Source: Deltaproteobacteria bacterium | GTDB taxonomy: Bacteria > Desulfobacterota > DSM-4660 > Desulfatiglandales > Desulfatiglandaceae | NCBI GenBank assembly: GCA_021737785.1 | Contig: JAIPDI010000008.1 | Location: forward strand, 1 to 64,000 | Direction of reading: 5' to 3' | Length of the DNA: 64,000 nt | Shown here: in pieces, positions 1,966 to 61,849 of the stretch | Layout: the number at the start of each line of letters is the position of its first letter | Numbering within the stretch: position 1 is the first letter of the stretch | The notes under the pieces: generated by a model | Told to the model about the DNA's origin: nothing | Database searches by the model: none | What the model saw: only the letters and a program-made list of their open reading frames with translations | Program-made: the position numbers and the translations under genes

Positions 1966-2250
1966 AGGCCTCCAATCTCACAAACACCGATCAGGGAGCA
2001 AGTCTCAGTGCTGACAGAAAAAATTGTTTTATGCAGGACACGATGATGAGCCTGTCTCCTGACCAATTTAGCACAGGGTGAGGGAGACTACAAACCTTAT
2101 CCATGATAGTGCGTCGACCCAAATGATTTCCATGTCGTTTCTGATCGATGTCAGCGCTGGGAGAATCGTGATAGACCCGATCAACCTTCGTGTGCCACAG
2201 GAGCTGGTCCCAGTCGATCGCTGCCCGCTCCCGGCCATTCTTCTTGACGC

Positions 2251-3552: not shown

Positions 3553-3669
3553 AAGTCTACTCCTTCCACGTCTCATTTATGCCGCAGCCTGCCGGGGTGC
3601 CCGTTAAAGAGCATATCAAGCAAAAAAAACACCTCACGTGAAAAAAAACTTCAAAAGCCTATCTACTTT

Positions 3670-3709
3670 GCCCCCAAGGCGGCCTGAAGGCCGCAACCAA
3701 CGCATCAGG
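3670..3709. repeat. Dispersed GC-rich hairpin repeat, copy 1
   Basis: Carries the perfect hairpin GCGGCC-TGAA-GGCCGC followed by GCAACCAA. The same core, GGCGGCCT(N)3-4GCCGCAACCAA, recurs at 16138 and 55621. This copy matches the others over the hairpin and flank (CCCCAAGGCGGCCT) but diverges after the AACCAA. The rest of the 3553-3957 intergenic stretch shows no credible gene. Confidence 0.65.
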
Positions 3710-3957
3710 AAACTTTTTCCGGCACATTTCCTTCCATTTCTTCAAACAGGTTCCAGGGCACCGCAAAGGCCAGGATACTCTTAAATGTCTGCGCTACCTC
3801 CTCAGAAAATAGCCCGAAGGATAAATCCCTGTAGCAGATTACACTCCAATGTCGTATCCACGGATCACGTTTAGCACTTAATCATTTTTATATCAAATGG
3901 TTAAGCTATATTTAAGAATACTTGGCAAAAAATTTCCGTGAGAGTCATAAAAAGTTC

Positions 3958-3986
3958 TTGACATTATCTAACTGGCCGGTTAATTC
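3958..3986 (+). promoter_or_regulatory. Sigma-70-like promoter of the mutase operon
   Basis: A consensus -35 TTGACA at 3958-3963 is followed after 17 nt by TAATTC at 3981-3986, giving a predicted transcription start near 3993, about 60 nt before the mutase ATG. This is a sequence match only. Two palindromes overlap the spacer and the start region (see next entry). Confidence 0.6.
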
Positions 3987-3997
3987 TACTGATCAGT
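3969..3997. promoter_or_regulatory. Paired palindromic operator candidate
   Basis: TAACTGGCCGGTTA (3969-3982) is a near-perfect palindrome lying between the -35 and -10 boxes. ACTGATCAGT (3988-3997) is a perfect 10-bp palindrome over the predicted transcription start. Their centres are 17 bp apart, on nearly the same face of the helix, as for a repressor binding as two dimers. The TetR-family gene at 15167 at the other end of the cluster is the natural candidate regulator, but this is inference. Confidence 0.5.
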
Positions 3998-4053
3998 TAG
4001 TTACTTATGGGTACAGATATTCTTTATTAACAACCCTTTAGAAAGGCATAAAA

Positions 4054-5736
4054 ATGGCAATATTGTTTAATGATAATGCAATTAAAGAGATAACCCGGCA
4101 GAAAAGTCAATGGCGAGAACAGGTTGACGAAAGCGAAGATAACGCCGAAAAGGTTTTTGAGACGCTTTCAGGCCTTCCCGTTGAGCCTATATACACCCCC
4201 GCAGACACAGCCCATATGGACTATCTTAATGATTTAGGGTTTCCCGGACAGGCGCCTTATGTTCGGGGTGTTCACCCGACCATGTACCGGGGACGGACCT
4301 GGACCTTGAGACAATTGGCGGGATTTGGTCCTCCTGAAGAGACAAATAAAAGGTACAGGTTCCTTCTCAGGGAAGGGGCGACCGGCATAAACGGTGTTTT
4401 TGATTACCCTACCCTCCGAGGATTTGATTCCACAGATCCTTTTGCCCGAGCCGATGTGGGGCGAGGTGGGGTAGCCATTGACACACTCGAGGATATGCGT
4501 ATCCTTTTTGATGGCATATCCATAGATAAAATCAGCAGTTCTTTGGTTACCTGTCAACCCATCTGCAATATCACTGTTCAGTCAATGTATTTCGCAAATG
4601 CGCAGATGCGGAATATCCCACTTGATAAACTGACCGGCACTAGCCAAAACGACTTTTTGATGGAGACGGCCATTACCATCTCACCCGAGCTCTTGCCCCC
4701 GAAGGTCTCTTTCAAACTGAGCTGTGATGCCATTGAGTATTGCACCAAGTACGTTCCTCGGTGGAATCCCATAAGCTTTGCCGGCTATAACTATCGAGAA
4801 GCCGGATGCTCAGCACCCCAGGAAGTTGCTTTTGTCATTGCCAATGCAATCGCCTGCTCCGAGGAATTGATCCGAAGAGGCCTCTCAATAGACAGCTTTG
4901 CGCCCAGGCTAAGCTTTTTCCTCTCTGCACACAATGATTTTTTTGAGGAGGTTGCCAAGTATCGTGCTGCCAGACGAATTTGGTTTCACATAATGAAGGA
5001 GCGTTTCGGCGCAAAAAATCCTCGATCCTTGACCTTGCGGTTTCACGTCCAGACTGCAGGCGTCGCTTTAACTGCTCAACAGCCTCTGAATAATATTGCG
5101 AGGGCCGCCTACCATGCTTTGTCGGCGGTATTGGGTGGCGCTCAGTCGATTCACATCGATGGATATGATGAAGCCCTGTGCACACCAACCGAGCTTTCGT
5201 CCCTAACAGCCCTGAGAACGAACCAAATCCTGCAATTGGAGACAAGAGTCACGAACACAATCGATCCATTAGGTGGATCGTACTTTGTAGAGACCCTAAC
5301 CAACAAAATGGAGGAGCAGACGCTCAGTCTACTTGGCAAAATTGATGAAATGGGAGGAATAGTCAATGCAACCGAGACTGGCTGGATACATCAAGAAATT
5401 TCCAATTCAGCATATAAATACCAACAGGCAATTGAGTCAGGCGACATGAAAATCGTCGGGATCAATTGTTACTGTATGGAAGATGAAAGGCTTCCTGTAG
5501 AGCTTTTTGAAAGTCCGGAAACTCTAAACATCCAGGAACAAAAGCTTGTGAAAATTAAGAGTGAGCGAAACAAGCCAGGTGTGACAGAGGCCCTTGATGA
5601 TATAACGCGATGCTGTGAGGAAGACAGGAATCTCATGGAGGTCATTGTAAATTCAGTAAAAGCCAAGGTTACACAAGGTGAAATTTCAAATACCCTCAAG
5701 AAATTTTACGGCACCTGGAATTCTCCCATTTTCTAA
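4054..5736 (+). CDS. B12-dependent acyl-CoA mutase, large (substrate) subunit
   Basis: A 560-residue protein of the methylmalonyl-CoA mutase large-subunit family, lacking the B12 domain, which is encoded next door. Family signatures are GVHPTMYRGRTWTLRQ (CoA channel), FDYPTLRGFDSTDP, ADVGRGGVAIDTLEDM, GTSQND, SFAGYNYREAG, FAPRLSFFLSAHNDFFEEVAKYRAARRIW, LRFHVQTAG and NTIDPLGGSYFVE. The residues that set substrate in this family differ from methylmalonyl-CoA mutase (aligned by eye): Tyr89 becomes Leu88, Arg207 (which holds the substrate carboxylate) becomes Thr208, and the catalytic-pocket His244 becomes Asn246. The residue before FDYPT is Val, not the Asp of 2-hydroxyisobutyryl-CoA mutase. It is therefore probably not a methylmalonyl-CoA mutase; a monocarboxylic branched acyl-CoA is more likely. 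First gene of cluster A, behind a strong promoter. Confidence 0.9.
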   Translation: MAILFNDNAIKEITRQKSQWREQVDESEDNAEKVFETLSGLPVEPIYTPADTAHMDYLNDLGFPGQAPYVRGVHPTMYRGRTWTLRQLAGFGPPEETNKRYRFLLREGATGINGVFDYPTLRGFDSTDPFARADVGRGGVAIDTLEDMRILFDGISIDKISSSLVTCQPICNITVQSMYFANAQMRNIPLDKLTGTSQNDFLMETAITISPELLPPKVSFKLSCDAIEYCTKYVPRWNPISFAGYNYREAGCSAPQEVAFVIANAIACSEELIRRGLSIDSFAPRLSFFLSAHNDFFEEVAKYRAARRIWFHIMKERFGAKNPRSLTLRFHVQTAGVALTAQQPLNNIARAAYHALSAVLGGAQSIHIDGYDEALCTPTELSSLTALRTNQILQLETRVTNTIDPLGGSYFVETLTNKMEEQTLSLLGKIDEMGGIVNATETGWIHQEISNSAYKYQQAIESGDMKIVGINCYCMEDERLPVELFESPETLNIQEQKLVKIKSERNKPGVTEALDDITRCCEEDRNLMEVIVNSVKAKVTQGEISNTLKKFYGTWNSPIF

Positions 5737-5766
5737 ACCTATTGCCAATTAAGGAGAGATCATTTT

Positions 5767-6153
5767 ATGAAAAGAAATCTCAGGGTAGTCATCGCACGCC
5801 TTGGAATGGATGCGCACTGGCGAGGGAGTATTGTTGTGGCGCGTGCCCTTCGCGATGCAGGAATGGAAGTTATTTATTTGGGTAATCAATTGCCTGAAAC
5901 CATAGTTGACGCAGCTATGCAAGAAGCCGCTGATATTATTGGCTTAAGCACCCTTTCCGGTAATCATATGGCATTGGCTCCAGAGGTGATCAGGCTTCTC
6001 AGAGAAAAGGGCATGTCCGGCACTCCGGTAATTATTGGGGGCACCATACCTCCCGACCACATCCCTAAGCTCAAAGAGGCCGGTATCTCAGAGGTGTTCG
6101 GCCCCGGTACGCCGCTTAAAAAAATAATCGACTTTGCTTTTAGCTGTAATTGA
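5767..6153 (+). CDS. Acyl-CoA mutase small subunit, cobalamin-binding
   Basis: A 128-residue stand-alone B12-binding domain of the methylmalonyl-CoA mutase C-terminal type. It has the complete base-off/His-on set: DAHWRG (DxHxxG, His supplies the lower cobalt ligand), GLSTLSG (SxL) and VIIGGTIP (GG) around the nucleotide tail pocket. It follows the large subunit by 30 nt with GGAGAG upstream of the ATG, so the two are almost certainly co-expressed as a heterodimer or heterotetramer, as in isobutyryl- and 2-hydroxyisobutyryl-CoA mutases. No MeaB/ArgK-type G-protein chaperone is encoded in the window. Confidence 0.93.
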   Translation: MKRNLRVVIARLGMDAHWRGSIVVARALRDAGMEVIYLGNQLPETIVDAAMQEAADIIGLSTLSGNHMALAPEVIRLLREKGMSGTPVIIGGTIPPDHIPKLKEAGISEVFGPGTPLKKIIDFAFSCN

Positions 6154-12678: not shown

Positions 12679-14634
12679 ATGCGCTCAACCACCTTGCCGG
12701 GCCTATTAGTTGATAACAGGAATAAATTCGGCGACAAGAAAATAGCGCTTCGCGAAAAGGAATATGGGATCTGGCAGGAATACACGTGGAAAGATTACTA
12801 CGAGCATGTTAAGAACTTTGCCATGGGAATCCACAGCTTAGGATTCAAGAGTGGGGAAAAATTGGCCATCATCGGGGATAACCGCCCTGAGTGGGTGTGG
12901 GCCGAATTGGCTGCTCAGTCTCTTGGAGGGATCCCTCTGGGTATTTACCAGGACTCCATACTCAATGAAGTTGTTTATATCATAAATCATTCCGAATCTA
13001 CCATAGTCGTGGCAGAAGACCAGGAACAATGTGATAAAATATTGTCTCTAAAGAAAAAAATCCCAAATGTCATAAAGCTTGTTTATACGGATCCCAAGGG
13101 AATGAGGGGCTATGATGACGACCTGTTAATAAGTTTTGAAAAAGTAGAAGATTTGGGCAAAGAGATGGCCCTGTTGGACCCGTCCTTTTATGATAGCGCG
13201 GTAACGAATCTTGATGAAGATGCCATTGCTATAATTGCCTACACGTCAGGCACAACCGGGTTTCCCAAGGGGTCTCTTTTGACTCACAAAAACATGCTAT
13301 CCATGGCTAAGAATCTCAATAAAGTCGATCCGAAATATGAAGATGATGAGTTCGTTTCCTTTTTGCCTTTACCGTGGGTGGGAGAGCAAATGATAGGGGT
13401 TTCTTCTTCTCTTTATATTGGATTTACAGTTAATTTTCCCGAGGAACCTGAGACCGCCACAGAAGATCTCTATGAAATAGGGCCAAATCTCATGTTTTCT
13501 CCCCCTAGGGTTTGGGAGCAAATGTCTCGATCCATTATGGTCAAGATCTTGGACGCCTCCTATTTGAAACGCTTTATTTATGAGCTCTGCCTGCCCATTG
13601 GGTACAGATGGGCTGATTTTAAGTTCGAAAAGAAAGTGCCTCCAAGGCTCTGGAGGCTAATTTATGCCTTGGCCTATTTGGCAGTTTTCCGTTCGCTTAA
13701 AGATCGGTTAGGATTCTCAAAGCTTCGATCCGCAACCACTGGCGGGGCTTTACTGGGTCCGGATGTATTCAGATTTTTTCATGCCCTTGGTATAAATCTG
13801 AAGCAGATATACGGACAGACAGAAATCTCAGGTATTTCAACTATACATCACAAAGGGGATGTAAAATTCGACACGGTGGGCATCCCAATTCCGGAAACGG
13901 AAATAAGGATATCTGAGGAGGGCGAAATCATTTCCAGGAGTCCATCTCTGTTTCAGGGGTATTGGAAAAACCCTGAAGCCACGGAGGAAACTCTCAAGAA
14001 TGGATGGCTACACTCAGGTGATGCTGGCTATTTTACAGAAGATGGGCACTTGGTCTGTATCGACCGAGTCAAGGATCTTATGGAACTCAACAATGGAACG
14101 AGGTTCTCTCCACTCTTTATTGAGAACAAGTTGAAATTTTGCCCTTATATTGTAGAGGCCGTAATCGTAGGCCACAAAAGGGACTTTATTGCTGGTATTG
14201 TTTGTATTGATTTCAAGCATGTTGGAAAATGGGCAGAAGATCATAATATTCCTTACACAACATATTCTGATCTTGCCTCAAGAAAGGAGATTTATCAATT
14301 AATCGAGAATGAAGTTTATCGAGTGAATAGGACTTTGCCCAAAGAGATGAGAGTTCACAGATTTTTTCTATTGTATAAGGAACTGGATCCCGACGACGAG
14401 GAATTAACAAGGACAAGAAAGGTAAGACGTGGCTTCATAAACGAGAAATATGCAAATGAAATTGGGGCGCTATATAGTAATGTTGAAATACTGCCAGTCG
14501 AGACCAAAATCAAGTATCAAGATGGGAGAACAGCTACGATTAAAACGGAACTATTCTTCTGTACCATGAAGCATGATGGCTATTACGAAAAAATGGTTCG
14601 GAAAAAGAAATGGTGGCAAAGAGAAAAAGGATAG
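12679..14634 (+). CDS. Long-chain-type acyl-CoA synthetase (AMP-forming), cluster A
   Basis: A 651-residue ANL-superfamily ligase converting a carboxylic acid, ATP and CoA to acyl-CoA, AMP and PPi. The P-loop YTSGTTGFPKG is intact, followed by IYGQTEISG and LHSGDAGYFTEDGHL. The hinge motif is DRVKDLMELNNGTRFSP, with PLFIENKL where the cluster B paralogue has the canonical PSEIENRL. The C-terminal LTRTRKVRR lysine region resembles long-chain fatty-acyl-CoA synthetases. It has about 45 more C-terminal residues than the cluster B enzyme. TGGAGG is well placed before the ATG. As last gene of the transporter operon it probably traps the imported acid as its CoA ester, feeding the mutase. Confidence 0.9.
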   Translation: MRSTTLPGLLVDNRNKFGDKKIALREKEYGIWQEYTWKDYYEHVKNFAMGIHSLGFKSGEKLAIIGDNRPEWVWAELAAQSLGGIPLGIYQDSILNEVVYIINHSESTIVVAEDQEQCDKILSLKKKIPNVIKLVYTDPKGMRGYDDDLLISFEKVEDLGKEMALLDPSFYDSAVTNLDEDAIAIIAYTSGTTGFPKGSLLTHKNMLSMAKNLNKVDPKYEDDEFVSFLPLPWVGEQMIGVSSSLYIGFTVNFPEEPETATEDLYEIGPNLMFSPPRVWEQMSRSIMVKILDASYLKRFIYELCLPIGYRWADFKFEKKVPPRLWRLIYALAYLAVFRSLKDRLGFSKLRSATTGGALLGPDVFRFFHALGINLKQIYGQTEISGISTIHHKGDVKFDTVGIPIPETEIRISEEGEIISRSPSLFQGYWKNPEATEETLKNGWLHSGDAGYFTEDGHLVCIDRVKDLMELNNGTRFSPLFIENKLKFCPYIVEAVIVGHKRDFIAGIVCIDFKHVGKWAEDHNIPYTTYSDLASRKEIYQLIENEVYRVNRTLPKEMRVHRFFLLYKELDPDDEELTRTRKVRRGFINEKYANEIGALYSNVEILPVETKIKYQDGRTATIKTELFFCTMKHDGYYEKMVRKKKWWQREKG

Positions 14635-15166
14635 CCAAAAATGCGGTAATGTCACCTGATCATTGCCAATCTTGACGAATCATTGTTAAACTAAATTATA
14701 TCCATCGATAACGATTTTACGATAATGTTCGTTGACAGGATTCTTGACAAGAGGTGTATTGGGGAATATTGTACCCTGGATTTTCTTCAGAGAAATTGTT
14801 CCTTTTTCTCGCAGGCGGTTTTTTTGGATCCCATAAAAAGCCGTTCGAAACATTTGTGTAGGCTGGGTGTGAATAAATGGTCAAACCTGGGAGTCATGGA
14901 CGGCGATGGGATCTGCAAGAAACTCACCCATATGTGTTCCATCTGCTCAATCATCCTTCTGTATTCGCACTTCCTTCGGAGGTTGTTATCGGAGAGCTAT
15001 AGTTTCCTTAAACCTTTTCTCAATCGTTATGATGTCCAAGGTGTCGTCAGCAACCTCATTTAGGTCACGTGTTTTTCATGCCAAAAAAAATCTCCAGCAA
15101 AAAATGCCCTTTGCCCATCAAAATATTATCTGCGGTAGATGGAAGCGATCTGAATAAGGGGTGACC
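14635..15166. other. Intergenic stretch without a credible gene
   Basis: About 530 bp between the synthetase and the TetR gene. Short overlapping open frames occur in several frames but lack ribosome sites and recognisable sequence. It holds a promoter candidate at 14744-14772; nothing else is supported. Confidence 0.5.
14744..14772 (+). promoter_or_regulatory. Promoter candidate upstream of tetR (cluster A)
   Basis: TTGACA (14744-14749), 17-nt spacer, TATTGT (14767-14772). A long leader of about 390 nt would separate it from the TetR start. Sequence match only. Confidence 0.35.
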
Positions 15167-15925
15167 ATGGCTACAAGAAACGGAAAATCCAATTTTAGAG
15201 GATTGGATAAAAGCCTAAAAATTCAAAAGATTATTGATACTGCCGCGGAGATCTTTCATAAGAAAGGTTACAGATCAACGACCCTCGATGATGTGTCACG
15301 GGAATTGGGGATTACCAAGGCTGCGTTATACCATTACGTGTCCAGTAAAGAAAAACTCCTTTCTAAAATCTATATTCAGGCATTGGAGAATATTTTTAAA
15401 AATACCTATAAAATTGCCGGAAAAAATTTGCCCCCTGATATGAAGTTAAAGCTTATCATACAAAATCATATTAAAAGCATTATCATTGGCTCTATTTCTA
15501 TGTTCTCTGTTTTTTTTACTGAGGAGAATCAACTTCCCGAGGAAGAAGTCAGGAAAATCAGGAAAGAAAAAACGAAATATAATCAAATTGTTGAAGAAAT
15601 TCTCGAGGAAGGTATGTCTCAAGGCCTGTTTAGGCGGGCTGATCCAAAGCTGCAAGCATTCGCCATAACAGGGATGTGTAACTGGGTATACAAATGGTAT
15701 AAACCCGGGAATTCCTTTTTCACTCCTGATCAAATCGCTGACCATTTTACACGCCTACTTGAGAGAGGGTATCTAATAGTTGACAAAGAACCGGTCGAAG
15801 ACTTAGCCGAAACACAGAGAGGGACCAAGAAGATCCCAGAGGCTAAAAAGGATCAGTTTAAAAAGGTCAAAGACCAGTGCATGGGTTTGATAGAACTTAT
15901 CAATGAGATAGAGAATTTAAGCTGA
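15167..15925 (+). CDS. TetR-family transcriptional regulator (cluster A)
   Basis: A 252-residue TetR/AcrR repressor. Residues about 15-65 form the DNA-binding domain: IIDTAAEIFHKKGYRSTTLDDVSRELGITKAALYHYVSSKEKLL. The C-terminal ligand domain has the TetR_C FadR-like look (FFTEENQLPEEE). The end is Lys-rich. ATG at 15167 has AAGGGG 5 nt upstream; a GTG two codons earlier is an alternative. By position it probably controls cluster A in response to an acyl-CoA, acting on the palindromes at 3969-3997; that target is inferred. Confidence 0.88.
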   Translation: MATRNGKSNFRGLDKSLKIQKIIDTAAEIFHKKGYRSTTLDDVSRELGITKAALYHYVSSKEKLLSKIYIQALENIFKNTYKIAGKNLPPDMKLKLIIQNHIKSIIIGSISMFSVFFTEENQLPEEEVRKIRKEKTKYNQIVEEILEEGMSQGLFRRADPKLQAFAITGMCNWVYKWYKPGNSFFTPDQIADHFTRLLERGYLIVDKEPVEDLAETQRGTKKIPEAKKDQFKKVKDQCMGLIELINEIENLS

Positions 15926-16137
15926 AGAGTAATCCCTGACCCGGAAAAATTCATATCAGGTTCTTTAGGCAACCGCCCGCCTTTGCCGGGTGACTCATCA
16001 GGATTTTAACCTTACGGAAAAGAACTGAAATCTCTCCGTATATGACGCGTTCAAGGACATTCATGAAAGGTCAAATTAAATCGCACAAGATGGGGACTTA
16101 AATGCACATGCCATTGGGCTCAGGCGCATAAATTCCT

Positions 16138-16192
16138 GAGGCGGCCTAACAGCCGCAACCAAAAAGGTACTGGTGCAAATCCCGGAAATTTT
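16138..16192. repeat. Dispersed GC-rich hairpin repeat, copy 2
   Basis: Hairpin GCGGC-CTAACA-GCCGC then AACCAAAAAGGTA, TGGTGCAAATCCCGG and AATTTT. Nearly the whole length matches the copy at 55621. It sits in the 337-bp gap between the converging tetR and kinase genes, which holds no gene; a short motif just beyond it, GCGCGTGGGGGT, also occurs near 47499. Confidence 0.7.
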
Positions 16193-16262
16193 CCGAACGC
16201 GCGTGGGGGTCTCTTTCTCCCGCCCAAGGCCGGGACATTAAAATGGGACCATAACGCTCGCC

Positions 16263-18530
16263 CTATTTCTCCAATTCATGCCTAATGGCAAGTCCCATCT
16301 TTTCCAACATATAGGGCTTTTTAATGTATTTTCCGGCCCCCAAATCCTGCGCGGCATCCACTTCCCTGGTCTTGGCAAATCCGCTGGCAATGATGGCCTT
16401 CTGGCCTGGCCTGACCTGTATTATCTCCTGATAAGTTTCTCGTCCGTTGATTCCCTTGGGCATAATCATATCAAGGACGATCAGATCCACAGGGTGTTCT
16501 TTCACATACGCAATCGCTTCTTCACCGCTGGATACCGCTTCAGGGTTGTACCCCAACTTTATTAGCATCCCACAGGCAATCTCTCTTTGCCTCTCCTCGT
16601 CATCAACCACCAGGATTTTTTCCCCGTGCCCCAGGTAGTCTTTCAAATCAACCGGTTCCTCCGCCTCAGCAATTTCCTCTCTGGTAACAGGAAAATATAG
16701 TTCAAAGAGCGTTCCCTTCTCATTGCTCTTCACATTAATGTAGCCATTATGGTCCTGGACTGTGTTCCACACAACCGCCAGACCCAGACCCGTGCCACTC
16801 CTGCCCATGACTTTCTTGGTGTAGAACGGTTCAAAGATCCTCTCAATGTCTTCAGTAGAAATACCGGAACCATCGTCCGACACACTCAGTACGGCATATT
16901 CCCCCTGACGTACATTCTCATAACCCCTAATCGGTTCATCCAGATATCGATTCCTGGTCGAGATGGTGACAGTGCCACTTCTTTCAATGGCCTCTGTTGC
17001 GTTGATAACCAGATTCATCAAGAGTTTTTTCATGTGAATGGAGGAGCCGTTCATGTTCAAGAGTTCCGAGTCCAATTGGGCCTTGAAATCAACAAATGCG
17101 TGCGCCTTTTCCAGCTTTTTAAATTCAGCAGAGGTCAGATATTCCCTTACAATGGTATTGAAATTCAATGCTTCTTTTCCGGTTGCCACACCTCTCGCAA
17201 TGGTCAGGAGGTCTGCGACAACATCGGCGGCCCGAATTCCGGATTCCTGTATGTTTTTTATCGGTTTCTTGAGGGGACTGTCTTCAGGTAAATCCATCAG
17301 AAGTAACTCGGGATAGCTTACGACCCCCGACAGTATGTTATTCAGATCATGGGCGACACCACCGGCCAGCAGTCCCATGGCTTCCATCTTCTGGGCTCGG
17401 TAGAGTTGGTCTCGCAGATTTCTTTGATTTTCTTCTCCCACCTTCCGTTCAGTGAGATCCCTAATCAACCCGATGAACCCAATGATAGCCCCTTTGTCGT
17501 CTTTCAAATAAAATACATTGGTCTCTCCAGGAAAAACTTCTCCAGATTTCTTCCGGTACTGTACGTTAAAGAGAAAATTCGGGTTGTCGATATTCGATTT
17601 CAGCGTCTCCCCAAGCCTTTTGAACTCTTCCTCGCTCGCGTAGACGGTAAGCGTCTCTTGGCCTTTGATCTCTTCCAGAGCATACCCAAACAGCGCAGAG
17701 AAGGCCGGATTACAGTCTATGATTCTTCTTTCCGTATCCGCGACTAGAATGGCATCCCTGATGCTGTTGTAAAGGGAACGGTACTTCTGTTCACCCTTCC
17801 GCAAGGACTTCTCGGCCCGCTTACGTTCGTCAACTTCAAACTCTAATCTTTTTTTTGCCTCTATCAGCTGTATCCTCTCTTGCTCCAAACTTTTGGACAA
17901 AAAATGTTCCTTTTTATGACTTGAGACAAGCCCTTTAACCAGCGCTGATACAGACATGGCGGCTATCACGTTCAATACGAGAAAATTTGCACCAGCAGAT
18001 ATGATCCCTTGGGATGTGATACCAAATTGAAATGTTTCTCCAAATTGCCCACGCCAAAAGAGTAAAGCAAAAATCGTCAATGCGGCCCCGTTCAGGGCTA
18101 TTGCCACAATGGCAGATCTTGACCCCAGAAGAACTCCGACAAGAACTGCGAAGGTGAAAAGCCACAGCGGGCCGCCGCTAAAGGGTCCGACATAACTAAT
18201 TACAACTAAGCCAACGATATAGAACATCAGCAGGGTAACTGATGCACGGATTTCATAGCTTAACCGTTTTGAAAACAAAAGAAAAATGCAAACCAAGTAG
18301 CCAAGGACATCAAAGATCGCCAAGCCCCATAATTGTTCTTTCATCACCAGAAGAATCGCGGCTGCTATGGCAAATGTGCAAAATATTAGCGCAGTGAAGA
18401 GTACTGCGAAGAGGACCCTCACACGCCAGAAAGCGAGGTCATCCTTCTCTATGACGGAGGTCGTCATCCTATTCACAGTGAAGGCCTGAAACCTTCTGAA
18501 AGAATTCAATAAATTATCAAACAAAACCAT
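16263..18530 (-). CDS. Membrane hybrid sensor histidine kinase/response regulator
   Basis: A 755-residue sensor. Residues about 30-205 hold six hydrophobic segments, then a charged coiled coil (about 205-245), a PAS domain (about 248-360, DAILVADTERRIIDCNPAF), HisKA with phospho-acceptor in GGVAHDLNNILSG, HATPase (N box NLVINATEA, G boxes DDGSGIS and GTGLGLAVV) and a C-terminal receiver (about 635-750) with VVDDEE, phospho-Asp in LIVLDMIMPKG and Lys in IKKPY. All catalytic residues are present. The HDLNN box is typical of HisKA kinases in Desulfobacterota that end in a receiver. No output regulator is adjacent, so its targets are unknown. A 41-codon ORF precedes it with one base between. Confidence 0.9.
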   Translation of the reverse strand: MVLFDNLLNSFRRFQAFTVNRMTTSVIEKDDLAFWRVRVLFAVLFTALIFCTFAIAAAILLVMKEQLWGLAIFDVLGYLVCIFLLFSKRLSYEIRASVTLLMFYIVGLVVISYVGPFSGGPLWLFTFAVLVGVLLGSRSAIVAIALNGAALTIFALLFWRGQFGETFQFGITSQGIISAGANFLVLNVIAAMSVSALVKGLVSSHKKEHFLSKSLEQERIQLIEAKKRLEFEVDERKRAEKSLRKGEQKYRSLYNSIRDAILVADTERRIIDCNPAFSALFGYALEEIKGQETLTVYASEEEFKRLGETLKSNIDNPNFLFNVQYRKKSGEVFPGETNVFYLKDDKGAIIGFIGLIRDLTERKVGEENQRNLRDQLYRAQKMEAMGLLAGGVAHDLNNILSGVVSYPELLLMDLPEDSPLKKPIKNIQESGIRAADVVADLLTIARGVATGKEALNFNTIVREYLTSAEFKKLEKAHAFVDFKAQLDSELLNMNGSSIHMKKLLMNLVINATEAIERSGTVTISTRNRYLDEPIRGYENVRQGEYAVLSVSDDGSGISTEDIERIFEPFYTKKVMGRSGTGLGLAVVWNTVQDHNGYINVKSNEKGTLFELYFPVTREEIAEAEEPVDLKDYLGHGEKILVVDDEERQREIACGMLIKLGYNPEAVSSGEEAIAYVKEHPVDLIVLDMIMPKGINGRETYQEIIQVRPGQKAIIASGFAKTREVDAAQDLGAGKYIKKPYMLEKMGLAIRHELEK

Positions 18531-18531
18531 T

Positions 18532-18657
18532 TTAAACTCTTTCGTATAACTCCCGCTGCTCAGGCGACATGGTTGCCAGACGATCTATTGCCTCTTCAGG
18601 GGAAACCGCTTCCAATGATCCACCAGACCGCTGAGTCATTTTATCCATTACCGACAT
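18532..18657 (-). CDS. Small 41-residue protein upstream of the kinase
   Basis: An open frame starting MSVMDKMTQRSGGSL and ending PEQRELYERV. A G-rich run (GGTCTGGGGGG) directly precedes the ATG as a possible ribosome site. Its stop is separated by one base from the kinase ATG, the arrangement of translationally coupled genes. No family is recognised; the sequence is acidic and helical in look. It may be a small partner, or a leader peptide. It could also be chance, as it is short. Confidence 0.45.
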   Translation of the reverse strand: MSVMDKMTQRSGGSLEAVSPEEAIDRLATMSPEQRELYERV

Positions 18658-18853
18658 CCCCCCAGACCTTACCTGTCTTCATCTCGCATAATTTCCACAA
18701 AGTCGCCTCGACTCTCTTCCCGAGCTGACTCCCCGAAACCCTTTGCAAAGTGCTTGTATGACACCTCATCATTTTCCTGGGGCTTATCCCAAAGAGCAAC
18801 CTGGGCTCAAGTTGCTCGATGGGAAAAGACCTGGTTGGAGTATTCGCCTCGGG

Positions 18854-20836
18854 TTAGTCAGACTGGGGATGGTTCCTGATTGAAACCAAGTAGGAATTGG
18901 TTCCCATATACAAACTGCCATCCCGGTTGAAATAGATGCCGCCGAATTCATGGCAATATTCCCACCCGCGGCCCAGAGGGATTTTCCAGATCGTGCGACC
19001 ATCCCATGAATCGATGGCGGAGATAAAATACGTACCGCCCTCCGTTGCTGAAATGTCGTCATCCCATTCTCCGGTATGCGCAAATATGATGCCGCTTTCC
19101 CGTGCCAGCATGGACATGGCAAAAAAACTGGTATGATCATTTTCCCACACCGTTCCGGCCCAAGGCTGGACACTGGTGGTGTCGAGTTGGATCAAGGCCA
19201 GCCCCGGCTCATTGGCGACCCACTGGGACCACGGCACATCCGTGGTATGGCCGAAATTGTTTTCCACCATGATAGAGCGGTTGACCCCGATCACCGACGC
19301 CTCAGCGGTACCGCGCATATCCGGAAAAACCGGAACCTGGGCAACCGGGGCGCCCGAATGGCTTACCGCCACCACATTGATCTGCGGGTAATCATTGTCG
19401 ACGATGGCAATCAGTTTATTCCCGGCCGCATCCTCCATGATGGTCGGCGTGGTGCCGGAACCGATATTTTTGGAACCGGATTTCAAAAACCCGCTATTGC
19501 GATAAGGATAACGCCAGCGCGTCTCAATGTTGCCGGTTTGATCATCAAAAGCCACCGCATACAAATATCCCTGGTTGCACACCCCCTGTTCGTCCAGGCC
19601 GTTGGTAACAAAATATGCGCCCTGCTCATCGACGGCAAAGGTATTGTTGTTCCACTGCCCGGGCAGCGACAGTCTGTCCAGCAGCACGGTCCGACAGCCT
19701 TTGAGTTTGGTCGCATCCGGCACGATTTCCACCACGGCCATATAGGCGGGTGATGTGAGTGTGTTGTTGTCCGTGCTGTAATGCCCCGCCAGCAGGCACC
19801 AGTATACATTGGGCCTTTCCGAATTCCAAACGGGCAAGGTTGCATACAAACTATTGGGAGCCTCCGATTGCGTCACCAATTGAACGATATCGTCACTGAC
19901 CCATATGGGCGTCAGTTCATACACGCTGTCTTTTTTCTCAACATCGGCCGTTGGAAAGCACTTAATCCTGTTGTCGCCGACCACAACCGAATGGTCGTCC
20001 TTATCCATGAAAAAATAGCCCCCGCCAAAAGAATTGGCAACAAAATCAGCCGTTTTAGTAGCGGAAAGGATACGCAGATCCTTGTCAAACACGATCAATC
20101 GATATGCCTGGTCGGCATATGAAAAAGCAACGCCGGTTATCTGATTGTTTTTGTTGCAGGCCATAATCGGCGTAAAACCATAGGGATTGAATTGGGTGAT
20201 CACCTCAAGCTTTTTATCGGTCGGTCCGGACAGACCGACGCTGTCGGAACAATAACTGTCCTGATGACCGCCATTGAAATTGTTTTCCGCCATGCCGGGA
20301 TTTTGGGGAATAGCAATACCTTGGAACAGATTATTCGTACTGACAGCGGGCATGACCATGAAGGTCTCCGTGGTGCGAAGCCCCTCCTGAGAGACCAACT
20401 CAATTTCCGTAAAACCGAAATCACCAATGAAATCCAGCGTACCCGGCTGTGTCAATGCAATGAAAATCATATATGTACCGGGCTCCGTAAATGGAATGGT
20501 GTTCGCCCTAATGGGGATGGAAAAAAGCTCGAATAACGGAAACCCGCCCGACGGCACGGTAAAGCTGACAACTCCCGGCGTAAGGGTTGTGTTCCAGTCC
20601 GGCCATTCATAGATCGGCTCGCCACCGGGCGCAATGATGCCGATATGAACATCCGCGGTCACCGGCTCAGCCAGATTGGCCACGGATACCGACAGTGTCA
20701 GGAGATCCCCCCATGAACGGTAAACCGTTTTGTCGGTCATCACATCAATACGAACCGCATCTCCGGATCCATGGCAAACGCCGACAAAAATACCGATGGA
20801 CAAGGCGATATACATGAATGTGAATATTTTTTTCAT
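18854..20836 (-). CDS. Secreted beta-propeller-like (PQQ-type) protein
   Basis: A 660-residue exported protein. MKKIFTFMYIALSIGIFVGVCHG is a Sec signal peptide; this start (20836) has GGAGG 6 nt upstream and is chosen over an in-frame start 25 codons earlier. Residues about 30-130 look like a beta-sandwich (VMTDKTVYRSWGDLLTLSVSV), then repeating blades with aspartate/tryptophan turns, for example GNIETRWRYPYRN, DSWDGRTIWKIPL and NRDGSLYMGTNSYL. The last two resemble PQQ-dehydrogenase-like propeller repeats. No catalytic site is evident, so binding or a structural surface role is as likely as an enzyme. It appears monocistronic. Confidence 0.75.
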   Translation of the reverse strand: MKKIFTFMYIALSIGIFVGVCHGSGDAVRIDVMTDKTVYRSWGDLLTLSVSVANLAEPVTADVHIGIIAPGGEPIYEWPDWNTTLTPGVVSFTVPSGGFPLFELFSIPIRANTIPFTEPGTYMIFIALTQPGTLDFIGDFGFTEIELVSQEGLRTTETFMVMPAVSTNNLFQGIAIPQNPGMAENNFNGGHQDSYCSDSVGLSGPTDKKLEVITQFNPYGFTPIMACNKNNQITGVAFSYADQAYRLIVFDKDLRILSATKTADFVANSFGGGYFFMDKDDHSVVVGDNRIKCFPTADVEKKDSVYELTPIWVSDDIVQLVTQSEAPNSLYATLPVWNSERPNVYWCLLAGHYSTDNNTLTSPAYMAVVEIVPDATKLKGCRTVLLDRLSLPGQWNNNTFAVDEQGAYFVTNGLDEQGVCNQGYLYAVAFDDQTGNIETRWRYPYRNSGFLKSGSKNIGSGTTPTIMEDAAGNKLIAIVDNDYPQINVVAVSHSGAPVAQVPVFPDMRGTAEASVIGVNRSIMVENNFGHTTDVPWSQWVANEPGLALIQLDTTSVQPWAGTVWENDHTSFFAMSMLARESGIIFAHTGEWDDDISATEGGTYFISAIDSWDGRTIWKIPLGRGWEYCHEFGGIYFNRDGSLYMGTNSYLVSIRNHPQSD

Positions 20837-52025: not shown

Positions 52026-52460
52026 CTACTCGACGGGATATCCGGCCTTTTCCCAGGCCGCCCATCCGCCCCCGAGGTTTCTAACATTCTTGTAGCCCAT
52101 ACGGCACAGGGTACAAGCCGTGAGGCATCCGCGGCCGCCGACCTTGCAGTAGACAAGAATCTTCGCATTTTTGTCGGGGATTTTCTTGTCCGCGCTGAAT
52201 TCAATCACACCTCTGGGGATATTGATGGCGCCGGGCACGTGGCCCATCTTGTATTCCTTTGGCTCCCGGCAATCCAGAAAGACCCAGCCGCCCTTATCGA
52301 GCATCTCTTTTGCCTCGGAAACGGATACTTCGCAGACGTCCTTTTTTGCCTCAGCGACAAAATCATCCGCGGTCATGTCCTTTGCCATGGACGGGGGAGC
52401 GCCAACGACAAGGAAACTCATCAACATTGCCGCGAATACCAGAAAACCAAATCTTCTCAT
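52026..52460 (-). CDS. Exported rhodanese-domain protein
   Basis: A 144-residue periplasmic single-domain rhodanese. Signal peptide MRRFGFLVFAAMLMSFLVV cut near SMAKD; domain SVSEAKEMLDKGGWVFLDCREP, active-site loop VYCKVGGRG with Cys as sulfur carrier, and the final NLGGGWAAWEKAGYPVE. The start at 52460 has GGAGG 7 nt upstream. It follows the multiheme cytochrome by 70 nt on the same strand, so a role in periplasmic sulfur or selenium redox with that cytochrome is possible. Confidence 0.9.
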   Translation of the reverse strand: MRRFGFLVFAAMLMSFLVVGAPPSMAKDMTADDFVAEAKKDVCEVSVSEAKEMLDKGGWVFLDCREPKEYKMGHVPGAINIPRGVIEFSADKKIPDKNAKILVYCKVGGRGCLTACTLCRMGYKNVRNLGGGWAAWEKAGYPVE

Positions 52461-52530: not shown

Positions 52531-53874
52531 CTAGTCGGCCCTCTTTTCCGGGATGAGTTCATCGGGGACGATCACAACCTTGTTCGCCTTCAGTTCTTTT
52601 GGATCTACCATCTTTTCAGTGAGAAACAATTCCGGGTTTCCATGACAGTTGTTGCAGGCCTCGTTCTGCGGGGTTTTCCGCCGGATATTGTGAGGCGTCG
52701 CGAACTTCCAGTTGGGGAGGGCATCAAAGTTTGCCAATCCATTCTTTACATAGAAGTCAAAGGTCCCATGATCCACCGGAACGTGCCGGAGCGTAACAAA
52801 CTTCTCGGGCCGCTTCTCCGACCGCAGGGGGTTCAAGCCCACCTTGAAGTCAATGGTGGATGGCCTGGTCTTGAAGTAGCCGAGCCCCTCCTTGTCTTTG
52901 CCCACATGGCAGCTGAAGCAGTTCTTGTAGGGCATGGAGTGGCATACCTGGCAACTCACCTGGTCTTTATGGATCCAGTGGTTTTTCGGGTTGGCCGATT
53001 TGGCATCATAGATATCCTTGTGGCACTGAAGGCATTTGGGGCCGTTTTTCACGTCATACCGATTGGCGGGATCTGTTCCATCGCCGTGCATTTCATCGGC
53101 CGTATGGCACTTGTTGCACTTGAAGTATTTCTCTTTGTGAATGTCAGGCGGGATCCCCTTGTTTTTTCCGAAATACTCATTTTCAATGCGACTGCCATGG
53201 CATGCCGTACAGACCGTCTGCATGGGCGGCCGTTTCTGAAAAAGATGTCCTTCCAGCAAACCCCCCTCAACAGCATCAGGACGACTGATGTGGCACTGCC
53301 CGCAACTGCTGTGGCAGGAGGTGCAGTGTCCTTGTCGCGCGGCATTTACTTTCGCATGAATCGCCTTATCCGAACTGGCCCGCTTGTCAATCATCTTCTT
53401 AAAAGGCGAGAGGCTCACGTGAAGACTTTTCGTATAGTTTTCGGCAATCCTGTCATGGCAGGCACCGCAGGTATTGGACGCATCCGGGTATGTCGGATCT
53501 TTGACCACCCCTTCATGGGCGGTCTTCCAGTTGGGATCATTCGGGTTGCCGCCATGACATTCATGGCACCCCAGCTCACCGTGGTTTTCATCTTCGGCCA
53601 ATGCGCTGTCCACCCAGATCTTTTCGTGCGGAGCCAACGGCTCCACAGCGCCGCCTCACCCCTCACCTTCGCTTTCAGAGGATACCGCCTTTTTCCCCTT
53701 GTTGGCCTCGGCAATTTGCCGGGTAATCTTGATGAGCTTTCCCGCGTTGGTGTGACAGGTAAAGCAGTGGTTTTCCTTTTCAGCCGATTGCGCTGTTTTC
53801 TGATTCCCATACAACAGGGCAAGAGAAACAGCGCAGGCCATGAATGTGACGATTCCAATTCGGACCGATTTCAT
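52531..53874 (-). CDS. Exported 11-heme cytochrome c with in-frame UGA (candidate selenoprotein)
   Basis: One open frame of 447 residues if the TGA at 53656-53658 (residue 73) is read through. The first part (72 residues) has a signal peptide (VRIGIVTFMACAVSLALLYG) and heme motif CFTCH. After the TGA the same frame continues GGAVEPLAPHEK and holds ten CxxCH motifs: CHECH, CGACH, CTSCH, CGQCH, CTACH, CNKCH, CLQCH, CQVCH, CFSCH and CNNCH. The second part alone lacks any export signal, and heme attachment needs export, so the gene works only if both halves are joined. A SECIS-like hairpin follows the TGA (next entry). Alternatives are a nonsense mutation or a sequencing error. Periplasmic electron transfer is the expected role; a sigma-54-like promoter lies upstream. 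Confidence 0.8.
53627..53658 (-). promoter_or_regulatory. UGA codon and candidate SECIS hairpin in the cytochrome gene
   Basis: On the minus strand, after UGA (53658-53656), 8 nt are followed by a 9-bp stem with one G-U pair (arms 53647-53639 and 53635-53627; core GGAGCC-GTT-GGCTCC) and a 3-nt loop starting with G. The loop begins 17 nt after UGA, as in bacterial SECIS elements, which have a short apical loop with G in the first two positions at about this distance. Confidence 0.65.
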
Positions 53875-53934: not shown

Positions 53935-53950
53935 AGCAAGTTTTATACCA
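53935..53950 (-). promoter_or_regulatory. Sigma-54-like (-24/-12) promoter of the cytochrome operon
   Basis: Minus strand TGGTATAAAACTTGCT matches the consensus TGGCACGNNNNTTGCW in the GG and GC elements and their exact spacing. Predicted start near 53924, about 50 nt before the cytochrome ATG. The divergent neighbour at 54288 encodes a sigma-54 activator, which supports the assignment. Confidence 0.55.
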
Positions 53951-54287: not shown

Positions 54288-55610
54288 GTGGAATCGGTCA
54301 AAAAACATTACCAAACCATATTGGACAGTATCGCCGACGGCGTCTTTACGGTGGATTTGAACTGGCGGATCACCTCCTTCAACAAGGCAGCGGAGACAAT
54401 AACCGGCATTTCAAGAGAAGAGGCGGTCGGCAGGCCCTGTTCCGACGTTTTCAGGGCCGATGTCTGCAAGACCGACTGCACCCTCAGCCACACTATCCGT
54501 ACGCAGATGCCGGTAAGAAATATGCCCGTTCATATTGTCCGGGCCGATCAAAAGATACTCCCCATCAGCGTCAACACGAACCTGCTGAAGAACGATTCGG
54601 GAGAGGTGATCGGCGGCGTTGAAACCTTCCGCGATCTGACCGTGGTGAATCGACTTCGCAGGGAACTCCTTAAGCAGCACTCATTTGAAGATATCGTCAG
54701 CAAAAACGGAAAGATGCTACGGGTCTTTTCCGTCCTTCCCCAGATCGCTGCAAGCAATTCCACTATTCTCATTCAAGGCGCCAGCGGTACCGGAAAAGAA
54801 CTTATTGCCCGGGCCATACACAATAACAGCCCGAAAAAAAACGGCCCTTTTATCGCGGTCAACTGCGGCGCCCTGCCGGAAACCCTATGTGAATCCGAAC
54901 TCTTCGGGTATATGGCCGGCGCGTTTACGGATGCCAAGAAGGACAAGCCGGGAAGATTCGCCCTGGCCCAGAACGGCACGATCCTATTGGATGAGATCGG
55001 CGACATATCGCCGGCGGTTCAGGTCCGCCTTCTGAGGGTTTTGGAAGAAAAGATGTTTGAACCGTTAGGGTCTACAAAGACCGTTGAGACCAACGCCCGG
55101 GTGATCGCCGCAACCCATCGAAACCTGGAAGAATTGACAAGGGAGGGCCGGTTTCGGCAGGATCTGTATTACCGCATCAACGTGATCAGGGTCCATTTGC
55201 CGGAATTGCGTGAGCGGAAGGAAGACATCCCGATCCTGGTGGATCATTTCATTGAGCGGTTCAACCAGTTGAATGGCAAAAAGATTCTGGGGTTAAGCCA
55301 GGAGGCGATGGCAGCCCTGATGCTTTACGACTGGCCGGGAAATATCCGAGAGCTGGAAAATGCCATCGAACATGCCTTTGTGCTTTCTCAGGGGGACATG
55401 ATTCTTCTGCAGCACCTCCCCGAGGAGCTGATTCCGCAGAACCACTCCATACTGGCACCCACAGGCTTCACCCTTCAGGAGATTGAGAAGCGAACCATTG
55501 AACAGACCCTTCAAAGAAATCAGTGGAAAAAGATGGCCACCGCCCGGGAACTGGGAATCGACAAAAACACCTTGAGACGAAAGATTCAGCGCCACGGGAT
55601 CATGGAGTAA
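54288..55610 (+). CDS. Sigma-54-dependent transcriptional activator (PAS-AAA-Fis)
   Basis: A 440-residue enhancer-binding protein with a GTG start. N-terminal PAS (about 1-120, ILDSIADGVFTVDLNWRITSFNKAAE), containing Cys-rich CSDVFRADVCKTDCTL, then AAA+ (Walker A GASGTGKELIARAIH, Walker B GTILLDEIGDIS) and a Fis-type helix-turn-helix at the end (KMATARELGIDKNTLRRKIQRHG). The sigma-54 contact loop reads GAFTDA instead of GAFTGA. No receiver domain, so the PAS probably senses a small signal such as redox state. Divergent from the cytochrome-rhodanese operon, the likely target. Confidence 0.92.
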   Translation: MESVKKHYQTILDSIADGVFTVDLNWRITSFNKAAETITGISREEAVGRPCSDVFRADVCKTDCTLSHTIRTQMPVRNMPVHIVRADQKILPISVNTNLLKNDSGEVIGGVETFRDLTVVNRLRRELLKQHSFEDIVSKNGKMLRVFSVLPQIAASNSTILIQGASGTGKELIARAIHNNSPKKNGPFIAVNCGALPETLCESELFGYMAGAFTDAKKDKPGRFALAQNGTILLDEIGDISPAVQVRLLRVLEEKMFEPLGSTKTVETNARVIAATHRNLEELTREGRFRQDLYYRINVIRVHLPELRERKEDIPILVDHFIERFNQLNGKKILGLSQEAMAALMLYDWPGNIRELENAIEHAFVLSQGDMILLQHLPEELIPQNHSILAPTGFTLQEIEKRTIEQTLQRNQWKKMATARELGIDKNTLRRKIQRHGIME

Positions 55611-60446: not shown

Positions 60447-61376
60447 ATGCAAAGATATCGAGACTTTAATACCTACCTGAAAGAAATATTCGGTGAAAGG
60501 GTCCAGAAAATATCTCTGGATGTCGGCCTCGGCTGTCCCAATCGCGACGGGACCATCTCCCGGGAGGGGTGCCTTTTCTGCGACCGCAGAGGATCCGGCA
60601 CCGGTGCCTTCATTGAGGAAGGCCTCTCCATCGACGATCAGATTATCCGGGCGAAAGAGGTCATTCAAAAGCGCTACAAGGCCCGGAAATTCATCGCCTA
60701 TTTTCAGTCTTTCTCCAACACCTATGCCCCTCCCCCCCGTCTGAAATTCCTCTATGACCAGGCATTGACCCACAAGGGGATGGTGGGGCTGTCCGTGGCC
60801 ACGCGACCCGACTGCGTGACTCGTGAGATCCTGGCCCTCATCCGATCTTATCAGAGGGATTACCTGGTCTGGCTCGAATACGGTCTCCAATCGTCACACG
60901 ATATAACCCTGAAGCGGATCCATCGAGGGCATGATGTCTCCTGTTTTGAAACAAGCGTTCGCATGGCCGCCGACCAGGCCATCAACGTGTGCGCCCACAT
61001 CATCCTGGGACTCCCGGGCGAAGACCGGGACATGATGCTCGAGACCGCCCGGTACCTGGCCCGGCTTCCTGTCCAGGGTGTGAAAATTCACCTCCTGTAT
61101 GTGGTTAAGGGGACCCCCCTGGCCGAACTCTATGGCAAAACCGCCTTCAGATGCCTGGGCAGAGACGAATACGCCGACCTTGTCGTGGACGTCCTGGAGA
61201 TGCTCCCCCCGGACATGGTGATCCATCGGCTCACCGGCGATCCTCCATCTTCGGAACTGATAGCCCCGGCATGGGCCGGGGAAAAGCAGATAAATTTAGG
61301 CGTTATTCAAGATACGCTTCAAAGGAGAGACACATGGCAGGGAAGACATTTCCAGACCTCTACTGCTCGCAAATAA
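60447..61376 (+). CDS. Radical SAM protein, TIGR01212/YhcC family
   Basis: A 309-residue radical SAM protein. The cluster-binding segment is GLGCPNRDGTISREGCLFCD (C-x12-C-x2-C, the special spacing of this family) and GLPGEDRDMMLETARYLARL lies in the barrel. The family is widespread in bacteria with unsettled function, linked to RNA or cofactor modification. Its 3' end overlaps the MGMT gene by 43 nt. Confidence 0.9.
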   Translation: MQRYRDFNTYLKEIFGERVQKISLDVGLGCPNRDGTISREGCLFCDRRGSGTGAFIEEGLSIDDQIIRAKEVIQKRYKARKFIAYFQSFSNTYAPPPRLKFLYDQALTHKGMVGLSVATRPDCVTREILALIRSYQRDYLVWLEYGLQSSHDITLKRIHRGHDVSCFETSVRMAADQAINVCAHIILGLPGEDRDMMLETARYLARLPVQGVKIHLLYVVKGTPLAELYGKTAFRCLGRDEYADLVVDVLEMLPPDMVIHRLTGDPPSSELIAPAWAGEKQINLGVIQDTLQRRDTWQGRHFQTSTARK

Positions 61377-61849
61377 AGCTGGATCGTTTGACCGTATACC
61401 TGGCATCTACAGGGAAAGGGGCGTTTCGGGTCGGACTGGGGCTGAACCGGACCAGCCGTTCCGTGCTGTTTTTCAGGCGTCTGTTTCCGACCGCGCGTCT
61501 CACAGAGGACCACCGTCTGAATCGCCCTCTTGCCGAGGCCGTGGAGGCTGCCTTTCGAAATACCCCCACTGAAACCCCCCTCGCCATGGATGTCTCGTTC
61601 ACTCCGTTTCAACGGGCGGTATTGGAGGCGGTGGCCGCCATCCCCTTTGGCCGGACACGGACATATGGAGCGGTGGCCTCAATAATAGGAAAGCCCCTGG
61701 CCGCCAGGGCCGTGGGTCAGGTCATGGGGAGAAATCCCATCCCTCTGATCTATCCGTGACATAGGGTAGTGGCTGCCGGGGGGCCCGGCGGTTTTGGAAG
61801 CGGGCTGGAGGTGAAACAATATCTGTTGGACTACGAAGCCGACGAATAG
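61334..61849 (+). CDS. ogt: Methylated-DNA-protein methyltransferase with UGA at the active-site Cys (candidate selenoprotein)
   Basis: A 171-residue MGMT/Ogt if the TGA at 61757-61759 (residue 142) is decoded. Upstream of it: FTPFQRAVLEAVAAIPFGRTRTYGAVA, the Arg-finger helix AARAVGQVMGRNPIPLIYP; after it, in the same frame, HRVVAAGGPGGFGSGLEVKQ and LLDYEADE, the normal end. The conserved active site is PCHR; here it reads P-UGA-H-R, so the UGA replaces exactly the catalytic Cys. That is what a selenocysteine form would look like, and a SECIS-like hairpin follows. Normal role: transfer of the alkyl group from O6-alkylguanine to the active-site residue. AAAGGAG precedes the ATG. Confidence 0.88.
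61757..61791 (+). promoter_or_regulatory. UGA codon and candidate SECIS hairpin in the MGMT gene
   Basis: UGA at 61757-61759; an 8-bp stem (61773-61780 with 61784-61791, CTGCCGGG-GGG-CCCGGCGG, one G-U pair) with loop GGG (61781-61783) that starts 21 nt after the UGA. Distance, loop size and G-loop fit the bacterial SECIS pattern. It also encodes the conserved AAGGPGG stretch of MGMT. Confidence 0.75.

Follow-up and report, generated by a model that had tools for sequence, protein, structure and literature searches.

A selenocysteine (Sec)-containing multiheme cytochrome was predicted in Geobacter in 2007 (PMC1914089), and ExtKL was named and, together with ExtI, tied to selenite reduction in Geobacter (PMC5877670). 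Structures of MccSep, including a U325A mutant, are available in the PDB (9wt8, 9wt9 and 9wta-9wtc). Two further groups of multiheme cytochromes are relevant for comparison: octaheme tetrathionate reductase (OTR; TIGR04315; PDB 1sp3), an 8-heme protein acting on a sulfur oxyanion, for which a Sec form is included in the 2026 selenoprotein inventory (PMC13188914), and ExtM and ExtN (NF040943 and NF040967) of the selenite/tellurite reduction operon, which are not listed as selenoproteins.

The window analysed here is a 64,000-nucleotide stretch (positions 1 to 64,000 of contig JAIPDI010000008.1, assembly GCA_021737785.1) from a deltaproteobacterium of the family Desulfatiglandaceae. It contains a minus-strand gene, with an ATG at 53874 and a TAG stop codon ending at 52531, that forms one 447-codon frame when TGA is translated as U. 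The single U is residue 73 (53658-53656), and of the 11 CxxCH motifs one precedes it and ten follow. The features of this locus are as follows:

52531-53874, minus strand: gene for the 11-heme c-type cytochrome, a predicted selenoprotein of 447 aa containing U73; the span includes the TAG
53782-53874, minus strand: putative signal peptide, residues 1-31, with a hydrophobic core and ending in AQSA (by inspection)
53752-53766, minus strand: CFTCH (residues 37-41), the motif for heme 1, which precedes the UGA and is invariant in the family
53656-53658, minus strand: UGA codon 73, predicted Sec, within the GEGUGG signature
53627-53647, minus strand: SECIS-type hairpin that begins 8 nt past the UGA, with a 9-bp stem and a GUU loop
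52642-53568, minus strand: hemes 2-11, CxxCH at residues 103, 136, 184, 191, 222, 253, 281, 308, 319 and 407
52026-52460, minus strand: secreted single-domain rhodanese, 144 aa, the next gene downstream (PF00581, 88.5 bits)
54288-55610, plus strand: divergent PAS/sigma-54 activator, the probable regulator
53935-53950, minus strand: site resembling a sigma-54-type -24/-12 promoter, TGGTATAAAACTTGCT, ahead of the cytochrome gene

The arrangement given in the preliminary description, with the signal peptide and heme 1 before the UGA and ten CxxCH motifs after it in one frame, was thus seen in the TGA = U translation. A Shine-Dalgarno-like AGGAG is located upstream of the ATG. Under standard translation the downstream ORF comprises 371 aa and starts at an internal GTG. 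On the strength of the sequence evidence, we consider it very probable that the gene encodes an exported 11-heme c-type cytochrome in which UGA73 is read as Sec by means of the downstream SECIS hairpin.

A Sec-containing multiheme cytochrome was at first described as an unusual electron carrier, but it is not unprecedented: one such protein, ExtKL/MccSep (NF040886; GSU2937-2936), is already known and its structure solved. The window protein and ExtKL/MccSep are alike in being exported deltaproteobacterial multiheme c-type cytochromes with one UGA-encoded Sec; as in the window family, no Cys form of ExtKL/MccSep has been reported and a rhodanese (ExtH) is present in its cluster, which is linked to selenite reduction. 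However, in ExtKL/MccSep five hemes are followed by Sec (U325 in MccSep, U329 in this genome's own copy), whereas the window protein has 11 hemes and carries its Sec between hemes 1 and 2. The NF040886 model, with a cut-off of 250 bits, gave no match for the window protein at E 0.1 and none for eight of its distant relatives at E 0.01. A profile of the 11-heme family reached MccSep at E 0.05 only, while the genome's own ExtKL (L116:8796-10120, plus strand, contig C44), which scores 422 bits against NF040886 and has U329 in the motif HRIPDGUPS, matched MccSep at E 1e-64. The window family thus differs from ExtKL/MccSep in its sequence, in how many hemes it has and in where the Sec lies, and the profile scores exclude their assignment to one family; the window protein is a founder-type member of this distinct Sec group. 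Two different Sec multiheme cytochromes, one of the 11-heme family and one ExtKL, occur in a single organism.

A weak profile similarity to OTR (E 1.8e-7, 33.6 bits) covers the middle hemes of the family and leaves the N-terminal part, from heme 1 through Sec to heme 2, outside the match; OTR has 8 hemes versus 11, and the TIGR04315 cut-off of 375 bits was not reached, the window protein not being listed and the best relative (L066) scoring 37.8. Similarity to ExtM and ExtN amounts to 26-46 bits in the heme-repeat regions, far below the respective cut-offs of 800 and 200 bits. No NCBIfam release 20 model reaches its cut-off for the 11-heme Sec family, which is also absent, under any recognisable name, from the 2026 inventory with its 119 families (PMC13188914). 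The protein WP_013164579.1 appears as 'cytochrome c family protein' with the Pfam domain Cytochrome_C554 in a 2022 review (PMC9312934) and is filed as ExtKL in the 2026 review (PMC13188914). No description of the 11-heme family was found in the open-access literature searched, and one may exist beyond it. To judge from these sequence comparisons, a separate 11-heme Sec family beside ExtKL/MccSep is the part of the finding that looks new.

The family is carried by sulfate-reducing bacteria and their relatives. Among 61 relatives searched, 17 full-length homologues were found, 53-78% identical and each with exactly one in-frame TGA; identities are 55-78% for full-length homologues within the order and fall to about 32% within the phylum. 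When the genomes of 85,000 species were scanned, 21 loci were recovered, their records bearing the names Desulfobacteraceae, Desulfobacula, Candidatus Desulfaltia and Eth-SRB1. The family was present in 23 of the 85 genomes of a class sample and, in a profile search, in 48 of 395 genomes of the phylum, nearly always with one TGA. The resulting non-redundant set comprises 84 loci, of which 83 cover the Sec site; the remaining one, L113, has no N-terminus and was left out. The preliminary description had called for an alignment of homologues, and this revealed UGA at exactly the position of the window gene in 82 of the 83 assessable loci, Tyr in one and Cys in none. By an automatic count, 81 of 84 loci have the UGA after heme 1 and before the heme that follows; the 82nd UGA locus, L142 (= L063), begins downstream of heme 1. 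The UGA is kept across dozens of genera, and the residues on both its sides are conserved.

The UGA was correctly placed in a Gly-rich linker, although this linker is not an incidental one, since GxGU followed by G or A is a conserved signature of the family. Three subfamilies can be distinguished by the Sec motif: GEGUGG, GEGUAG and AGUGV. Searches for Cys homologues among the relatives and in both samples, that of the class and that of the phylum, were extended to E 1e-20 and found none; matches near E 1e-22 span only profile positions of about 142-354, outside the Sec region. A sense codon other than Cys, named in advance as an observation against recoding, occurs once, in a divergent rhodanese-fused protein (L105/L067) with Tyr in the sequence GKGYMV. 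We read this as the loss of Sec in one lineage. This Tyr homologue, itself fused to a rhodanese, shows that one lineage or more can do without Sec.

In the mature cytochrome, U73 is the sole Cys or Sec residue outside the heme motifs. Because all Cys residues are engaged in heme motifs, there is no resolving thiol, and the Sec would most likely bind a substrate or ligate a metal. Alongside the 11 CxxCH motifs (and an export signal judged by inspection), nine non-motif His residues are invariant or near-invariant across the family, at positions 98, 120, 152, 210, 246, 263, 299, 302 and 395; with nine such residues for 11 hemes, one or two hemes may have an open or unusual site. A heme-free AlphaFold2 model built from 73 sequences had a mean pLDDT of 84 and a pTM of 0.78. 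A first, poorer model gave a middling match to OTR (1sp3), at Z 6.7 over 227 residues with an rmsd of 4.9 A, while the top fold list of the better model did not contain OTR, only hydroxylamine/hydrazine oxidoreductase-type cytochromes at Z of about 3. Foldseek searches of the PDB with either model gave no match at E 0.001 or better.

The best clue to the function of the cytochrome is its rhodanese partner. A secreted rhodanese is encoded directly downstream in 73 of the 84 loci; it was not found at this position in the other 11, two of which end at the contig boundary. The cytochrome of L067/L068 bears a C-terminal fusion of two rhodanese domains, Sec being replaced by Tyr in L067/L105, and in L110 two rhodanese-like stretches, recognised by inspection, precede the cytochrome in one frame with Sec kept. 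These C-terminal (L067/L105) and N-terminal (L110) fusions arose twice independently. The PAS/sigma-54 activator is divergent from the cytochrome both in the window and in many Desulfobacterales loci, and a -24/-12-like site was detected in 8 of 25 homologue upstream regions versus 0.45 expected in base shuffles, the motif of the window taken alone being within chance. Other cytochrome genes were also seen nearby: in three loci a second, 9-heme cytochrome gene of ~620 aa lies within a few kb (L101:12348-14210, L111:14077-15948 and L114:3116-4969), and in L104 densely clustered further multiheme cytochrome genes with up to 16 CxxCH motifs surround the Sec cytochrome (1474-6000 and 14584-19001).

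The rhodanese partner suggests sulfane sulfur or selenium as the substrate. Taken together, the lone free Sec, the rhodanese and the possibly open heme site favour a chalcogen redox enzyme, with a plain electron carrier as the main rival. We assign a probability of roughly 0.6 to the whole explanation, namely a Sec-containing 11-heme cytochrome with a role, alongside the rhodanese, in chalcogen redox reactions outside the cytoplasm. The mechanism could be as follows: the hemes would serve as a wire carrying electrons to or from an extracytoplasmic chalcogen substrate, such as sulfane sulfur or selenium in the form of a persulfide, polysulfide, thiosulfate-like species or selenite/selenium; the rhodanese would carry the chalcogen, in persulfide or perselenide form, or pass it on; and Sec73 would act as the nucleophile accepting it or as a substrate binder beside a heme. 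This scheme, with the rhodanese as donor, is put forward tentatively, at slightly less than even odds. The module probably serves selenium acquisition in some lineages, those with neighbouring YedE/YedF/SelD or SelA genes. It is rather unlikely that the protein represents a new type of chalcogen redox enzyme whose only free chalcogenol, the Sec, is handed sulfane sulfur or selenium by a secreted rhodanese dedicated to it and which, in some lineages, supplies its own selenium pathway. Several observations weigh against the chalcogen explanation: the linkage to selenium genes is limited to 7 of 84 loci in three lineages and absent from the window, a genome carrying the family (G128) has no SelA match at 98% estimated completeness, the Tyr homologue is itself fused to a rhodanese, and in 11 loci no rhodanese was found as the next gene downstream.

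Alternatively, the cytochrome could be purely an electron carrier, a partner of, for example, formate dehydrogenase, in which Sec73 is a heme axial ligand or tuning residue and no chalcogen chemistry takes place. Genes of Sec formate dehydrogenase do adjoin the cytochrome in several lineages (L032/L034, L050, L117, L135, L172 and L177), and the nine near-invariant His residues leave one or two of the 11 hemes with no universal His ligand candidate. Yet formate dehydrogenase is adjacent in a minority of loci only, and a plain carrier would not be expected to have a secreted rhodanese as its near-universal neighbour and as a fusion partner. We regard this possibility as unlikely.

A narrower form of the chalcogen explanation would be a dedicated selenium-assimilation module, which reduces selenite or, with the rhodanese, delivers selenium to YedE and SelD; such a module would need Sec in order to feed Sec synthesis. 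Selenium genes (YedE, YedF, SelD or SelA) were found near the cytochrome in seven loci belonging to about three lineages. In L040, L041, L045 and L046, YedE and YedF-like genes and in some cases SelD are located right downstream. The cluster in L040 (7902-12320, plus strand), which is of the same type as those in L041, L045 and L046, comprises, past the cytochrome and the rhodanese, YedE, a 183-aa gene, an NAD(P)H-hydrate dehydratase-like gene, YedF and SelD; YedE (480 bits), YedF (220) and SelD (363) all score over the curated cut-offs. YedE, YedF and a cysteine desulfurase-family gene adjoin the cytochrome in L118, while SelA is encoded two genes upstream in L101 (583 bits, over the cut-off) and close by in L159. 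YedE, YedF and DUF3343 are predicted selenium genes (PMC9312934). The involvement of ExtKL and ExtI in selenite reduction by Geobacter (PMC5877670) also speaks for this reading, as does the resemblance of the L101 rhodanese to ExtH, at 66 bits, which is under the cut-off. In total, 13 selenium genes occur in 1.14 Mb of scanned flanks versus about 1.6 expected, an expectation that assumes five such genes in a genome of 3.5 Mb and takes no account of phylogeny. Nevertheless, selenium genes are missing from the surroundings of most loci, the window included. Gene neighbourhood is in any case weak evidence, and regulation could be the reason why Sec users cluster. A module dedicated to selenium assimilation appears quite improbable.

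Whichever function applies, the recoding of UGA73 to Sec itself is, from the comparative evidence, near certain. The claim that this is genuine recoding is borne out by the conserved UGA, a covarying SECIS-type hairpin, the presence of Sec machinery and the use of UGA as a stop codon otherwise. Absence of the machinery would have spoken against it, and the genome carries SelA, SelB (over its cut-off) and a tRNA-Sec with a UCA anticodon. UGA is the stop codon of 13 of the 34 long ORFs of the window and also of some family members, which means that the code is not reassigned. The co-occurrence of SelA with the cytochrome is uninformative, since 355 of the 395 genomes of the phylum have SelA; among the genomes carrying the family, G208 has only a piece of SelA, and the lack of a SelA match in G128 could reflect an assembly gap or a real loss. 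The second UGA-containing gene reported for the window is indeed present: it encodes a methylated-DNA-protein-cysteine methyltransferase (MGMT; 61334-61849, plus strand), in which the UGA at 61757 replaces the catalytic Cys (PUHR) and is followed by a strong hairpin of -16.8 kcal/mol. Sec-MGMT is a listed selenoprotein family (PMC13188914).

The hairpin, UGUGGAGCC-GUU-GGCUCCGCA, has nine pairs and a UGA-to-loop spacing of 17 nt, and its stem length, loop and position 8 nt after the UGA are all as first described. No SECIS at the Rfam gathering score was detected in the window. Across 24 distinct hairpins with eight counted pairs, 90.6% of cells were paired versus 76.9% in shuffles, 23 cells carried double changes versus 8.8, and the covariation score was 0.421 versus 0.202; none of the 500 shuffles reached these values, and pairing dropped to 35-48% in slid controls. 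The clearest compensatory swap is between GGAGCC-GUU-GGCUCC and GGCUCC-GUU-GGAGCC, where the protein changes from EPLA to APLE while the stem is kept. With the amino acids fixed, random synonymous codons matched the observed pairing in ~0.5% of cases for most hairpin types. The 42 nt that follow the UGA, compared in 81 members, folded better than synonymous recodings, with a mean z of -1.19 versus -0.02 for control stretches taken from these genes (Mann-Whitney p 4e-17, a value not corrected for the relatedness of the members). The signal is weaker and the shape different in the AGUGV and GEGUAG subfamilies. Altogether, the conserved UGA, the covarying stem and the strength of the stem relative to synonymous recodings place the pairing of hairpin and UGA beyond chance.

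A UGA acting as a true stop, with a one-heme peptide and a 371-aa protein translated from the internal GTG, could be suggested by the purine-rich stretch before this in-frame GTG, and a pseudogene or a sequencing error would likewise interrupt the frame. Conservation of the UGA over the non-redundant loci leads us to reject these options, leaving them a very small probability: the codon persists across dozens of genera with conserved residues on both sides and a covarying hairpin, no TAA, TAG or sense codon apart from the single Tyr occupies the site, and the GEGUAG subfamily has no GTG at the corresponding position. Moreover, the product of the downstream frame would lack a signal peptide and could not have hemes attached outside the cytoplasm. 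Read-through that does not involve Sec is known in nature, but decoding of this UGA as Trp or another residue by a near-cognate tRNA is extremely improbable, having no specific support and being at odds with the covarying hairpin at SECIS distance, the tRNA-Sec and SelB of the genome, and the normal use of UGA as a stop by 13 window ORFs and several family members.

Since gene callers cut the gene at the UGA and lose the signal peptide, heme 1 and the Sec, the family is hidden as truncated cytochromes, and a widespread family, with members in 48 of the 395 sampled phylum genomes, is masked in annotations. The family shows that multiheme cytochromes acquired Sec on two or more occasions, in contexts unrelated to each other. 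The cytochrome is a concrete candidate for the handling of sulfane sulfur or selenium by anaerobes outside the cytoplasm, and the rhodanese neighbour renders the proposed chemistry directly testable. If the proposal is true, in some lineages the cytochrome would supply the selenium pathway that is itself required for making it.
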